Source: an uncultured Dehalococcoidia bacterium (GTDB taxonomy: Bacteria > Chloroflexota > Dehalococcoidia > Lucifugimonadales > UBA1123). Taken from it: a stretch of 64,000 nt of DNA. Numbering within the stretch: position 1 is the stretch's first letter; every line of letters starts with the position of its first letter. The stretch spans positions 531,800-595,799 of the forward strand of contig OY282441.1 of assembly GCA_958296105.1 (NCBI GenBank), given 5' to 3'. Positions 51,536 to 56,706 of this stretch are shown here, one piece after another. The translations under genes and the position numbers were made by a program. The notes under the pieces were generated by a model. The model searched no databases. It saw only the letters and a program-made list of their open reading frames with translations, and was not told the origin of the DNA.

Positions 51536-51742
51536 GCCGCACCTCCGAAAAAGTAGAAGATCTTCATGCCGAACGTATCATAGCACGCTGGGGAACTGCT
51601 GGCGCATGAAGCGGCAAGCGCGCAAGGGACGAAGTGGATCCGCAGCCGAATTCAGGGCGGCGTCTGGCGTCTGGCGGACGTGGAAGCGCAGGAAAATGTT
51701 CGGTTCGTGTACACTGTGAAAAAGACCGCTAGGGGGCGAAAA

Positions 51743-52105
51743 ATGGGAGCGACGTACGTAAACGCGATCATCAGAAATCCGTCGGATACGAGCAGGGCAT
51801 GGGAGGGGCGCTTTCTGGTGGATACGGGCGCGTTCGACTGTCTCGCTCCTCGCGCGGCCCTGGAGTCCATAGGTCTCGAACCCAAAGGGAAGCGCGCGTA
51901 CATTCTGGGGGACGGAAGCGAGGTGAACCTGGAATTCACGACGGCGGACATAGAGCTGATGGGAGAGGTTACGGGGACGGCGATCATATTCGGGGAGGAA
52001 GGGGTGGAGCCGCTGCTGGGCGTGACCGTTCTCGAATCCACAGGGTTCGAGGTGGACGCGCGGGGCGAAAGTCTGCGGAAACTTCCGGCGGTCTTGCTGA
52101 GGTGA
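51743..52105 (+). CDS. clan AA retropepsin-like aspartic protease
   Basis: A 120-aa single-domain protein with the retropepsin active-site motif FLVDTGAFDCLAP (D-T-G) near residue 29, followed by an expected ILGDGSEVNLEF flap region and the hydrophobic LLGVTVLESTGFEVD end motif. It would have to dimerise to be active. The ATG at 51743 has AGGGGG upstream; a TACACT element lies near 51711. It is immediately upstream of, and on the same strand as, the McrBC-type cluster. Confidence 0.78.
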   Translation: MGATYVNAIIRNPSDTSRAWEGRFLVDTGAFDCLAPRAALESIGLEPKGKRAYILGDGSEVNLEFTTADIELMGEVTGTAIIFGEEGVEPLLGVTVLESTGFEVDARGESLRKLPAVLLR

Positions 52106-52136
52106 CGGCGGACGGGGAAGGCTGGGAGCGAAGATA

Positions 52137-52225
52137 TTTCAGGTGCCGGTGAACGCTCTCAGGCGGGAATCCGACACCAATGCCGAGTGGACGACGGGGG
52201 CGGAGATATCAGGTGCCGGTGAACG
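52137..52225. repeat. direct repeat upstream of the McrB-related genes
   Basis: aggtgccggtgaacg occurs at 52141-52155 and 52211-52225, 70 bp apart, each preceded by an AT-rich atat(t)tc or atatc. A decayed third relative (gggcgacggtaaac) lies at about 53111 before the full-length mcrB. The repeats were probably carried along in the same duplications that copied the gene 5' end. Confidence 0.65.
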
Positions 52226-52267
52226 GAATACGACGGGAACAAACGCAAGGGCGACAGGAGCGAGGCA

Positions 52268-53089
52268 ATGGGCGACGGCGTGGAGAATGTATACACGGCG
52301 TACACGGCGGCGAAGGCATGGGTAGAGAGGGCGCTGAAGGCGGACGACTCGCTGTTCACGCCGGGCAGGGAAATCTGGTCGAGCAGGTGGCTTGGGGAGC
52401 TGCGCGAGCGGCTCTTGGACAATACAAACGTGGAAGGCTCCGGGTTCTGGGAGAAGCTGGAGCGGCAGATGGAAGGCAGCCCTCCGCAGGTCTATCAGCT
52501 GATGGGGGAAACGCTGTACGTCCACTATCTGATCATCTGGCACAGCGCTATGAAGGGCGAGACGAAAGAGAGCAATATCAACAAAGTGATCGGATGGTCT
52601 GGGCAGGCGGTGACAATTCCCGATGATCTCGTCAGCGTCCTGACTCCGGGAATAGCCAAACCTGGGATGTATTTCACCATCACCCGACACCTTCAGATCG
52701 GCTTCATTATCGAGTTCGCGGAGCAGTGGAAGGAGCAAGGGACGGGCGAACAGAATCTCATGCTGTCCGATCCATGGGAGTTCAGAGCCTTCGCAGAAGG
52801 TGTTGAATTCCGCAGCGCGCTTCTGCGCGATAAGAGTCCGTCCACAACCAACGCTCAGCGGTACGCTACGCTCAATCTCGTCTTTCCAGACACGTTCGAG
52901 GCAATCATCAGCAATGATCACAGGAGCAAGATCACCGAGGCATTCCAAAGATACGTCACGCAGCCAACCGACGATGTCGACCGTCAACTACAGCAGATTC
53001 GCTCTGCTCTCGAAGCCGTGTATGGAAGCCGAATTAACTTCTACGATAATCCGGAAATCAGGAGCCAGTGGGACCCCAGCTACACCTAG
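52268..53089 (+). CDS. free-standing copy of the McrB N-terminal domain
   Basis: A 273-aa protein collinear with residues 1-270 of the adjacent McrB (WVERALKADDSLFTPG, GSPPQVYQLMGE, QWKEQGTGEQNLMLSDPW, VEFRSALLR) but stopping before the AAA+ part. The 5' leader is duplicated too: both starts share gcgacaggagcgaggcaatg, 901 bp apart. The two copies differ at many residues, yet this one has no stop or frameshift over 270 codons, so it appears to be kept under selection. Likely a specificity or inhibitory module of the restriction system. Codon use is less G+C-biased than in flanking genes. Confidence 0.8.
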   Translation: MGDGVENVYTAYTAAKAWVERALKADDSLFTPGREIWSSRWLGELRERLLDNTNVEGSGFWEKLERQMEGSPPQVYQLMGETLYVHYLIIWHSAMKGETKESNINKVIGWSGQAVTIPDDLVSVLTPGIAKPGMYFTITRHLQIGFIIEFAEQWKEQGTGEQNLMLSDPWEFRAFAEGVEFRSALLRDKSPSTTNAQRYATLNLVFPDTFEAIISNDHRSKITEAFQRYVTQPTDDVDRQLQQIRSALEAVYGSRINFYDNPEIRSQWDPSYT

Positions 53090-53168
53090 GGCTGAGGAGT
53101 GGAGATAGATCGGGCGACGGTAAACAAGGTATGACAGAACAAAACGCAATGGCGACAGGAGCGAGGCA

Positions 53169-55481
53169 ATGGGCAGCAGACTAACGTACGGCGACGATAT
53201 CTACGAGGGGGCGAACACGTGGGTAGAGCGCGCGCTGAAGGCGGACGACTCGCTGTTCACGCCGGGCAAGGAAATCTGGTCGATCAGGTGGCTTGAGGAG
53301 CTGCGCGAGCGGTTCTTGGACAATACAGACGTGGAAGGCTCCGGATTCATGGGAAGGCTGGAGCGGCATCTGGAAGGCAGCCCTCCGCAGATCTATCAGC
53401 TGATGGGGGAAGCGCTGTACGTCTACTATCTGGTCGCCTCGAGTATGAAGGGCGAGACGAAAGAGAGGCGTATCAACGAAGTACTCGGATGGTCTGGGCA
53501 GGCGGCAACGATTCCCCCTGAGCTCGTCAGAGGTCTGGACGGAGGAATAGGCAACCCTGGGATGTTTTTCATCGCCAACCCTCAAGTTCAGGCCGGTTTC
53601 ATTGTCGAGTTCGCGGAGCAGTGGAAGGAGCAAGGGACGGGCGAACAGAATCTCATGCTGTCCGATCCATGGAAGTTCAAAGCCTTCGCAGAAGGCGTTG
53701 AATTCCGCAGCGCGCTTCTGCGCGGTAAGAGTTCCGACGGTCAGCGGTACGCTACGCTCCATCTCGTCTTTCCAGACAAGTTCGAGTCAATCATCAGTAC
53801 TGATCACAAGATCAAGATCGCCGAGGCCGAGGCATTCCAAAGCTATGTCACGCAGCCAACTGGCGATGTCGACCGCAAAATCCAGCAGATTCGCTCTGTT
53901 CTCGAAACCGCATATGGAAGTCCAGATCACCTCTTCTATTATCCGGAAATCAGGATCCAGTGGGACGACAGCTACGATCCTTGGGATGAGTTGGTCAGGC
54001 GCGCCAAGCGCGTCGAGCGCGAAGTCATAGGCAGCGAAGTGGGATTCAAGAATGAATTCGCCAAGGGACTCTCGAATGCGCGCGAAGCGATGGCAGGTGG
54101 AGGCGATGACTGGGTCGATCTCATAAAGGAAGCGAACCCAAACAATCTCATCAACTGGAGGAATTGGAATCCCTTTCTCGGCTGGGTCGAGAACAATCAA
54201 GAAGACGCTCGGAAGGCGATGCAAGCGCTCTGGGCGGAGGACGATTCACCCATCTCTGAACGGATCGGGGATTTCATGGACATGTTTCCCCCATCCGTGC
54301 TAGGCCGCGGCGTCGGAATCCGCGCGTCCGTTGCCGCCGGCTTGCTAATGGGAGTGGATCCCAAGCTGTATCCTCCATTTAGGATCACCATATTCAGAGC
54401 GGCATACAAATTTACAAGATACGACGAACCGGAGCGGGGCGCGAAGGAGGCGGAGCTGTACGAACACGCTCTGGGCTTTCTGGACAAGTTCATCGAGGAA
54501 GCTGACAAGCGCGGGCTGACCATAAACGATCGTCTTGAAGCGCAATCCATCTTGTGGCGAATCTCGCTCGACGATCCTCCTGCGCCGCTGCCCGTGGATG
54601 ACTTCGAACGTCTGGCAGAGGAGCTGCTTCTGCCCGTAGGGTTTCTAAAGGAGATCGAGGCGCTCTTGGCCGACAAGAGGCAGGTAATCTTCCAAGGGCC
54701 GCCGGGGACGGGGAAGACCTACGTTGCGCAGGCGCTGGCGCGGCATCTCGCGGGGGCGGGCGAGCGGGTGACGCTGGTTCAGTTCCATCCGTCCTACGCA
54801 TACGAGGACTTCATCCAGGGGTTTAGGCCCACGCTCAGCGGCGGACAGGCGGGGTTCGAGCTGAGAGACGGGCCGCTCGTGCGCTCGGCTCGGCAAGCGA
54901 TAGCGGAGCCGGACAAGCAGCACTTCCTAGTAATAGACGAGATCAATCGCGGCAACCTGTCCAAAGTCTTCGGGGAGCTGTACTTCCTGCTGGAGTACAG
55001 GGACAAAGAGATAAGCCTTCAGTACTCGGACGAGAAGTTTCGGCTGCCCGGCAATCTGCACTTCATCGGCACGATGAACACGGCGGACCGCTCCATCGCG
55101 CTGGTGGACTCGGCTCTGAGACGGCGGTTCTACTTCGTGGGGTTCGACGCGGACGGCGAGCCTGTGAAAGGACTCCTGCGCCGCTGGCTGAACAAGAACG
55201 GCATGGACGGCATGGGGTGGGTGGCGGACATGGTGGAACGCGCGAACGATCTGCTGAAGGACGATCCGCACTCCGCCATTGGGCCGAGCTACTTCATGCG
55301 CAAAGGGCTGACAGAGGACGTCGCGCGCCGAATATGGAAGCACGGCGTACTGCCCTACGTGGAAGAGCGGCTGTTCGAAGGGAGCGAGCGCATGGGCGAG
55401 TTCGATTTCGACAGGCTGCGCGGAGCGAGCCGACAGGCAGACTCGGACGAACGCAACGTGAACGGCGCAGGCGATGCGTGA
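53169..55481 (+). CDS. mcrB: McrB-like AAA+ GTPase of a type IV restriction system
   Basis: A 770-aa motor subunit. Residues about 1-490 are the large N-terminal region seen in some McrB-like proteins, including the duplicated first 270. The AAA+ core follows: Walker A IFQGPPGTGKTYVAQ near 505, HPSYAYEDFIQGFRP, Walker B FLVIDEINRGNLSKVFGELY, and MNTADRSIALVDSALRRRF, the McrB-specific signature. With McrC it would translocate on and cut modified or foreign DNA. The mcrC start overlaps its stop by eight bases. The first half is less G+C-rich than the second. Confidence 0.92.
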   Translation: MGSRLTYGDDIYEGANTWVERALKADDSLFTPGKEIWSIRWLEELRERFLDNTDVEGSGFMGRLERHLEGSPPQIYQLMGEALYVYYLVASSMKGETKERRINEVLGWSGQAATIPPELVRGLDGGIGNPGMFFIANPQVQAGFIVEFAEQWKEQGTGEQNLMLSDPWKFKAFAEGVEFRSALLRGKSSDGQRYATLHLVFPDKFESIISTDHKIKIAEAEAFQSYVTQPTGDVDRKIQQIRSVLETAYGSPDHLFYYPEIRIQWDDSYDPWDELVRRAKRVEREVIGSEVGFKNEFAKGLSNAREAMAGGGDDWVDLIKEANPNNLINWRNWNPFLGWVENNQEDARKAMQALWAEDDSPISERIGDFMDMFPPSVLGRGVGIRASVAAGLLMGVDPKLYPPFRITIFRAAYKFTRYDEPERGAKEAELYEHALGFLDKFIEEADKRGLTINDRLEAQSILWRISLDDPPAPLPVDDFERLAEELLLPVGFLKEIEALLADKRQVIFQGPPGTGKTYVAQALARHLAGAGERVTLVQFHPSYAYEDFIQGFRPTLSGGQAGFELRDGPLVRSARQAIAEPDKQHFLVIDEINRGNLSKVFGELYFLLEYRDKEISLQYSDEKFRLPGNLHFIGTMNTADRSIALVDSALRRRFYFVGFDADGEPVKGLLRRWLNKNGMDGMGWVADMVERANDLLKDDPHSAIGPSYFMRKGLTEDVARRIWKHGVLPYVEERLFEGSERMGEFDFDRLRGASRQADSDERNVNGAGDA

Positions 55482-56706
55482 GATAGATCTGAAAGAGTAC
55501 GAGCGGAGTGAGCCGTATAAGCTGTCGGCGTCCGAGCGGGATGCGCTGGGACGTCTGGATCTGTCCATCGGCATCGAGCCGGCCCGGGGAGAGGATGGCT
55601 GGTACGCGCTGACGCCGGGATCGAAGGTCGGCGCGGCGGAGGTCGGCGGATTGTCGGTCCTCATACGTCCCAAGATCGGCATTCCGAATCTGCTGTCGCT
55701 GGCGTGCTACGCTAGCGGACTGGTCAAGCTGCGGAGCGAAGACTTCGATTTCCACAGTGACGACGCTCTGCCGGACGTTGTGGCTCGGGCGCTGGCGCGT
55801 CACGCGAGGCGGGCGTTCGCTCGCGGGCTGCTGCACGGCTACCGCGCGGAGGAGGACGCGCTCCACACGGTGCGCGGTCGGGTGCGCTTCGAGGATCAGA
55901 TACGGCGGCGGCTCGGCGCTCCCCTGCCGGTGGAGGTGAGGTACGACGAGTTCACGGACGACGTTACGGCGAACCGTCTGGTGAAGGCGGCGGCGGCGCG
56001 GCTGAGAGTGATGCGCCTGCGCTCGGCGGAGGCGCGGCGCGGGCTGGGCTGGACGCTCGGCACACTGGACAACGTTTCGCTGGTGGAGTTTCCGAGCGGC
56101 GACGTCCCTGCCATACGCTACGACCGCCTGAACGAGCATTACCGAAACGTTGTCGAGCTGTCGCGGCTGATCCTGCGACGCAGTGTGTTCGAGTCGAGGC
56201 GCGGAGAGGAGCGCGCCAGCGGCTTCCTGATGGATATGAACGGGGTGTTCCAAGAGTTCCTGACGCAGGCGCTGAGAGAGGCGCTTGGGGTATCGGCAAG
56301 AACGCTGCGCTCGGACGAGAATCTGTCTCGCACGGTGACGCTGGACGAAGCCGGGCGGCTGTCGCTGAAGCCGGATCTGTCGTGGTGGGAAGGCGGCGTC
56401 TGCCGATTCGTGGGGGACGCGAAGTACAAGAGAGTAGGCGGCGATGGAAGTGCGCCCGCGCCCGACCTGTATCAGATGCTCGCCTATACGACCGCGCTCG
56501 ACCTGCCAAAGGGCTTGCTGATCTACGCGAAGGGGGAGGCGGACGCGGCGAAGCACCGCATCCGCCACTGCGGGAAGCTGCTGGAAGTGGCGGCGCTGGA
56601 TCTGTCCGGGACGCTGGACGAGACGCTGGCGCGAGTAAGGGTACTGGCGAACAGGGTCAGGAACATGCGCGACGAGGCGCGGGGGATTCGCGCCGCGCCT
56701 GTGTAG
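55474..56706 (+). CDS. mcrC: McrC-like nuclease subunit
   Basis: A 410-aa protein that stimulates McrB and carries the nuclease. The N-terminal part has VGGLSVLIRPKIGIPNLLSL and HTVRGRVRFEDQI; the C-terminal PD-(D/E)xK core reads LKPDLSWW and VGDAKYKR, followed by DLYQMLAYTTAL. It is complete for the family. The ATG at 55474 lies inside the last codons of mcrB, ensuring coupled synthesis. Confidence 0.92.
   Translation: MREIDLKEYERSEPYKLSASERDALGRLDLSIGIEPARGEDGWYALTPGSKVGAAEVGGLSVLIRPKIGIPNLLSLACYASGLVKLRSEDFDFHSDDALPDVVARALARHARRAFARGLLHGYRAEEDALHTVRGRVRFEDQIRRRLGAPLPVEVRYDEFTDDVTANRLVKAAAARLRVMRLRSAEARRGLGWTLGTLDNVSLVEFPSGDVPAIRYDRLNEHYRNVVELSRLILRRSVFESRRGEERASGFLMDMNGVFQEFLTQALREALGVSARTLRSDENLSRTVTLDEAGRLSLKPDLSWWEGGVCRFVGDAKYKRVGGDGSAPAPDLYQMLAYTTALDLPKGLLIYAKGEADAAKHRIRHCGKLLEVAALDLSGTLDETLARVRVLANRVRNMRDEARGIRAAPV

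Follow-up and report, generated by a model that had tools for sequence, protein, structure and literature searches.

A tandem duplication in an McrBC operon of an uncultured Dehalococcoidia bacterium released the N-terminal module of McrB as a separate gene, which has its own start and ribosome-binding site and ends at the domain boundary. The window (the whole stretch of 64,000 nucleotides that was analysed) carries the free-standing N-domain gene at 52268–53089, mcrB at 53169–55481 and mcrC at 55474–56706, all on the plus strand. The free gene is intact from ATG to TAG and encodes 273 aa, of which residues 3–272 are covered by the N-domain profile (E 2e-122). McrB (770 aa) comprises the N domain (residues 1–270), a middle domain (about 272–470) and an AAA+ motor (about 480–752). 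The mcrC gene overlaps the end of mcrB, and its product (410 aa) matches PF10117 (E 1.4e-50).

The AAA+ domain of McrB matches AAA_5 (E 1.5e-24). Its motifs are Walker A GPPGTGKT (residues 510–517), D590-E591 and NTAD (637–640, of the NxxD form), and they were invariant in 17 relatives. Because of these motifs and the PF10117 match of McrC, the locus is classed, from its sequence, as an McrBC-type (Type IV restriction) system; GTP- and modification-dependent DNA cleavage is only predicted. The CoCoNuT subclass of McrBC has an NxD signature in place of NxxD (PMC11090510), and membership was ruled out by NTAD. A promoter and terminator scan of the locus found none.

In the DNA self-alignment, copy 1 of the duplication (leader and N domain) spans 52202–53096, and copy 2 (leader and N domain, fused to the remainder of mcrB) spans 53101–53990, both on the plus strand. 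They align with 81.9% identity including gaps (E 0.0, far above chance). This confirmed the sequence-only reading, which had proposed, with the right coordinates, that the leader and the first ~270 codons of mcrB had been duplicated in tandem. The ungapped blocks were 84–89% identical, at spacings of 901, 895, 886 and 892. The leader of the free gene, which contains the ribosome-binding site, lies at 52203–52267 (plus strand) and is duplicated at 53104–53168, with 77% identity over 71 nt. Around the start codon, 23 nt including the AGGAG box were identical between the copies. A third leader-like copy was seen upstream of the free gene, where 52133–52169 is 78% identical to 52203–52239 (37 nt, spacing 70).

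The free gene differs from the 5' end of mcrB at 126 bases and 80 amino acids (267 aligned codons), and its reading frame is free of stops. The copy is thus diverged at many residues and still open, as had been claimed. Three indels separate the copies within the N domain; each is a multiple of three, and comparison with relatives assigned most of them to the fused copy. Near its end, copy 1 stays similar to copy 2 for a few bases beyond the stop, and a 2-nt gap gives the TAG at 53087 (by eye). Hence, the stop of the free gene probably arose from a small deletion. Without the gap, the stop would still come about seven codons further on, at the start of the second leader. Read-through from the free gene into McrB was ruled out, as a TGA follows one codon beyond the TAG. 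An assembly artefact or collapsed repeat was also ruled out, given the 126 base differences between the copies and a genome that consists of a single 3.18 Mb contig.

The same two-gene arrangement, which the sequence-only reading had suggested looking for, was found in a second genome, G124 (OY282385.1), where a free N domain again precedes McrB. In the N-domain tree, the window copies are sisters (support 100/99), and so are the G124 copies (99/98). A single origin of both free genes was rejected: forcing them together costs 101 lnL units (AU p 1e-71). The duplication junctions differ, being contiguous in the window and separated by a 180-bp spacer in G124. The parent McrBs also differ in architecture, with a middle domain in the window and without one in G124. 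In both genomes, the free gene stops close to the domain end, at most a few residues away. By tree and junctions, the two free genes arose by independent duplications in two distantly related lineages. An ancient duplication with later homogenisation is compatible with a tree but is disfavoured because the junctions differ.

The N domain had no match in Pfam, NCBIfam or PADLOC and no sequence match in the PDB. A Pfam search of 30 N-domain members at E values up to 10 gave scattered sub-threshold matches only. The E. coli McrB-N family, DUF3578, matched neither the free protein nor the 30 relatives (E up to 10) nor McrB residues 1–270. The name 'McrB N-terminal domain' given in the sequence-only reading therefore holds for the position of the domain and not for its family. 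E. coli McrB-N (DUF3578/ADAM) is a DNA-binding domain with a base-flipping beta-sheet fold. AlphaFold predicted the free domain on its own, as had been proposed, as a compact all-helical unit (pLDDT 94, pTM 0.91), and the domain was acidic in all 30 members (pI 4.7–6.5). With an acidic, all-alpha domain that does not match DUF3578, the analogy to the DNA-binding domain of E. coli is unsupported as it was worded. The proposed competition for target DNA would depend on this premise.

Structure searches with the N-domain model were similarly negative: Foldseek gave nothing at E 0.001 or better in the PDB or BFVD. VIA-align returned six 8-oxoguanine DNA glycosylase (OGG/AGOG) entries at Z 2.3–3.5, which is the chance range for helical models. 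Against HhH-GPD proteins from the same genomes, the hhalign probability was 0.6%, and no HhH family of Pfam matched. Given the low Z and the 0.6% profile probability, a relation to HhH-GPD glycosylases is a weak lead only. The idea that the N and middle domains are ancient duplicates of each other found no support in hhalign. Judged from the searches and the model, the N domain is an acidic, predicted all-helical module without a Pfam family or a clear PDB match.

Within the order, 21 of 250 genomes contained the N domain, and across the phylum 29 of the 400 that were sampled. It also occurred in Actinomycetota, and on plasmids of Actinomycetota and Alphaproteobacteria; the nearest named matches were SAR202/Dehalococcoidia MAGs (Chloroflexota). 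The architectures were mostly N-AAA (~600 aa) or N-middle-AAA (~780–840 aa), usually with McrC after them. Only two of the ~50 loci examined, the window and G124, had a free-standing N domain. A third candidate (G829) was ruled out, as its 255-aa frame is cut off by the contig end. No free-standing phage homologue that might act as a decoy was found in 50,697 phage records. Five viral-classed IMG/VR contigs (L155–L159) carry N-domain McrB and McrC pairs; none of their N domains is free-standing, and the one on L159 is apparently split by a frameshift. The N-domain McrBC system may travel on mobile elements, or the viral-classed contigs may contain host DNA. In four loci of other Chloroflexota (L107, L108, L110 and L112), the N domain heads AAA proteins of 734–946 aa with no clear McrC neighbour, and the large downstream ORFs have at most marginal similarity to McrC. 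These loci probably represent a different McrB-like system. A broken N-AAA McrB remnant was found in G817 (L106, 3544–5131, minus strand), meaning that such systems decay in some genomes.

Three congeners lack the whole McrBC system. HpaB and MoxR, which flank the system in the window, are both present there without being neighbours. The system was therefore probably acquired in this lineage specifically, at a site that has been rearranged. The entire HpaB-MoxR interval of the window is lineage-specific. Directly upstream of the operon, at 51680–52105, lies a small aspartyl-protease-like gene (PF13650, barely above the cut-off), which is absent from the HpaB locus of the congeners.

The locus resembles E. 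coli K-12 McrBC in having an AAA+ McrB with NxxD and a PF10117 McrC in one operon, and a partial McrB beside the full one. The partial form of E. coli, McrBs, withdraws McrC when overproduced and suppresses restriction (PMC12707154). The two partial proteins differ in what they keep: McrBs arises from an internal translation start and retains the motor but lacks the N domain, whereas the duplicated gene of the window encodes an N domain that lacks the motor. The N domains differ as well, as the window domain does not match DUF3578 and is all-alpha in the AlphaFold model. Other McrB homologues have exchangeable front domains, such as EVE/YTH/PUA-like domains, or B3 in LlaJI (PMC12707154, PMC11090510). 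They share with the window a modular front-end, the assumed seat of specificity, on a common motor; the front domain is fused there, whereas the window encodes a second, free-standing copy. Published work describes the modulator McrBs of E. coli and front domains that are fused to McrB and exchangeable (PMC12707154, PMC11090510, PMC3874153); our literature search of open-access papers found no report of an McrB front domain released by tandem duplication.

A related system in G039 (L035, 2782–9548, minus strand) has two tandem N-AAA McrBs, a 526-aa McrB whose start coincides exactly with that of the middle domain, and McrC. It shares with the window a tandem expansion of N-domain genes ahead of McrC; the difference is that it has two whole N-AAA McrBs and one McrB without an N domain, and no free N domain. 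By analogy, it may be seen as a complementary split of the McrB domains, resembling a genome-encoded McrBs.

In the sequence-only reading, a dN/dS near 1 between the copies was to count against a function. The window pair indeed gave 1.07–1.22 (dN 0.18, dS 0.16), but the fused copy carries most of the change, and the G124 pair gave 0.35–0.50 (dN 0.16–0.18, dS 0.36–0.46). In purpose-written codon models (11 sequences, 262 codons), the background omega was 0.20–0.22. After the duplication, omega in the window was 1.2, far from the background (LRT 52.6) and not different from 1. At equal time, it was 0.75 for the free and 1.64 for the fused copy (LRT for the difference 7.2, p 0.007); the test of the fused copy against 1 gave LRT 3.6 (p 0.06). 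The free copy alone, with omega 0.57–0.75 and an LRT against 1 below 1, was indistinguishable from neutral. A model with a neutral free copy and a fused copy constrained like the family was rejected, being worse by 34 lnL (equal time) or 20 lnL (free branch lengths). The branch lengths in the N-domain tree were 0.11 for the free and 0.29 for the fused copy. The nearest outgroup (G028) shared the state of the free copy at 26 diagnostic sites and that of the fused copy at 11. In these comparisons, the window free copy is the conservative half of the pair, not the degenerate one, and it is McrB's own N domain that moved. As the branch models assign most amino-acid change to the fused copy, a dN/dS of ~1 in the window does not mark the free gene as an extra copy in decay.

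For G124, the free copy had an omega of 0.42 at equal time, and omega = 1 was rejected (LRT 14.7). With free branch lengths, the same test gave an LRT of 0.7, having no power without the equal-time assumption. In simulations, the chance of the frame staying open under neutrality was 0.13–0.25 for the window and 0.02–0.09 for G124, so that the open frame alone is weak evidence in the case of the window.

From the independent recurrence, the purifying selection in G124 and the conservative copy in the window, the view with the best support is that such systems can use a free N domain as a functioning component. We tentatively favour the explanation that the free protein is a putative functional accessory subunit of the restriction system that keeps the ancestral form of the sensor. 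The N module would serve these McrB-family motors as their front-end (sensor or adaptor), and the free copy would retain its ancestral form and probably its ancestral ligand. The free protein would be made together with McrB and would bind either the N domains carried by the McrB hexamer or a common ligand, which would leave the fused copy free to diverge. Two non-identical sensor modules would then feed one AAA+/McrC machine, giving it a wider or better tuned target range. The compact predicted fold, the retained start and ribosome-binding site, and the end at the domain boundary are in favour of a functional subunit. The points against it are that the window free copy cannot be separated from neutral, that its frame could be open by chance, that the G124 test loses its power once equal time is no longer assumed, and that the arrangement is rare. 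In Type I restriction, the specificity subunit HsdS provides target recognition from a gene of its own, separate from those for the motor and the nuclease. If the sensor-subunit explanation is true, the free protein would be similar in being a separately encoded recognition module; the difference is that there is no homology and that the window McrB also keeps its fused recognition domain.

For the window by itself, a nearly neutral recent duplication is a serious rival and quite possible. The free gene would be functionless and not yet inactivated, and the fused copy would have changed fast through an arms race or relaxed constraint. The pairwise dN/dS, the post-duplication omega, the chance of an open frame, the rarity of the arrangement and the small deletion that probably gave the free gene its stop are all in line with this. 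What fits less well is that the fused copy, although tied to an McrB that has to remain intact, shows more change than its free counterpart, and that the in-domain indels all keep the frame and lie mostly in the fused copy. Moreover, the arrangement recurs independently, with a low dN/dS in G124.

An unlikely but not far-fetched alternative is that the motorless free domain binds the trigger of McrB, competes with it and so limits self-damage. It would be a mirror image of E. coli McrBs, which is a precedent for a modulating partial McrB (PMC12707154), and the ancestral form kept by the free copy would suit a common ligand. However, a competitor of the present McrB should track the specificity of the fused domain, and the fused domain has moved off. 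The choice of an accessory sensor subunit over a damper is inferred from this divergence. It is very improbable that the direct repeat is a cassette that stores sequence for reshuffling the McrB N domain by gene conversion or deletion: direct repeats of this size can recombine, and the longest identical run is 68 nt in a pair that is 84% identical (permutation P 0.0004), but this run sits in a protein-conserved block, no run stands out among the silent differences (P 0.88), so that they give no support to gene conversion between the window copies, and the run of the G124 pair is not significant (P 0.07).

The front domains of McrB are thought to set the targets of Type IV systems, but they have been described as fused parts. 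The N domain studied here is frequently found on McrB-like proteins from several phyla, yet it has no family model or assigned function. The two independent releases suggest that it can work alone and that a free-standing version of it can be useful. They also provide natural pairs for finding its ligand; in the window, a conservative free copy can be set against a diverged fused one.
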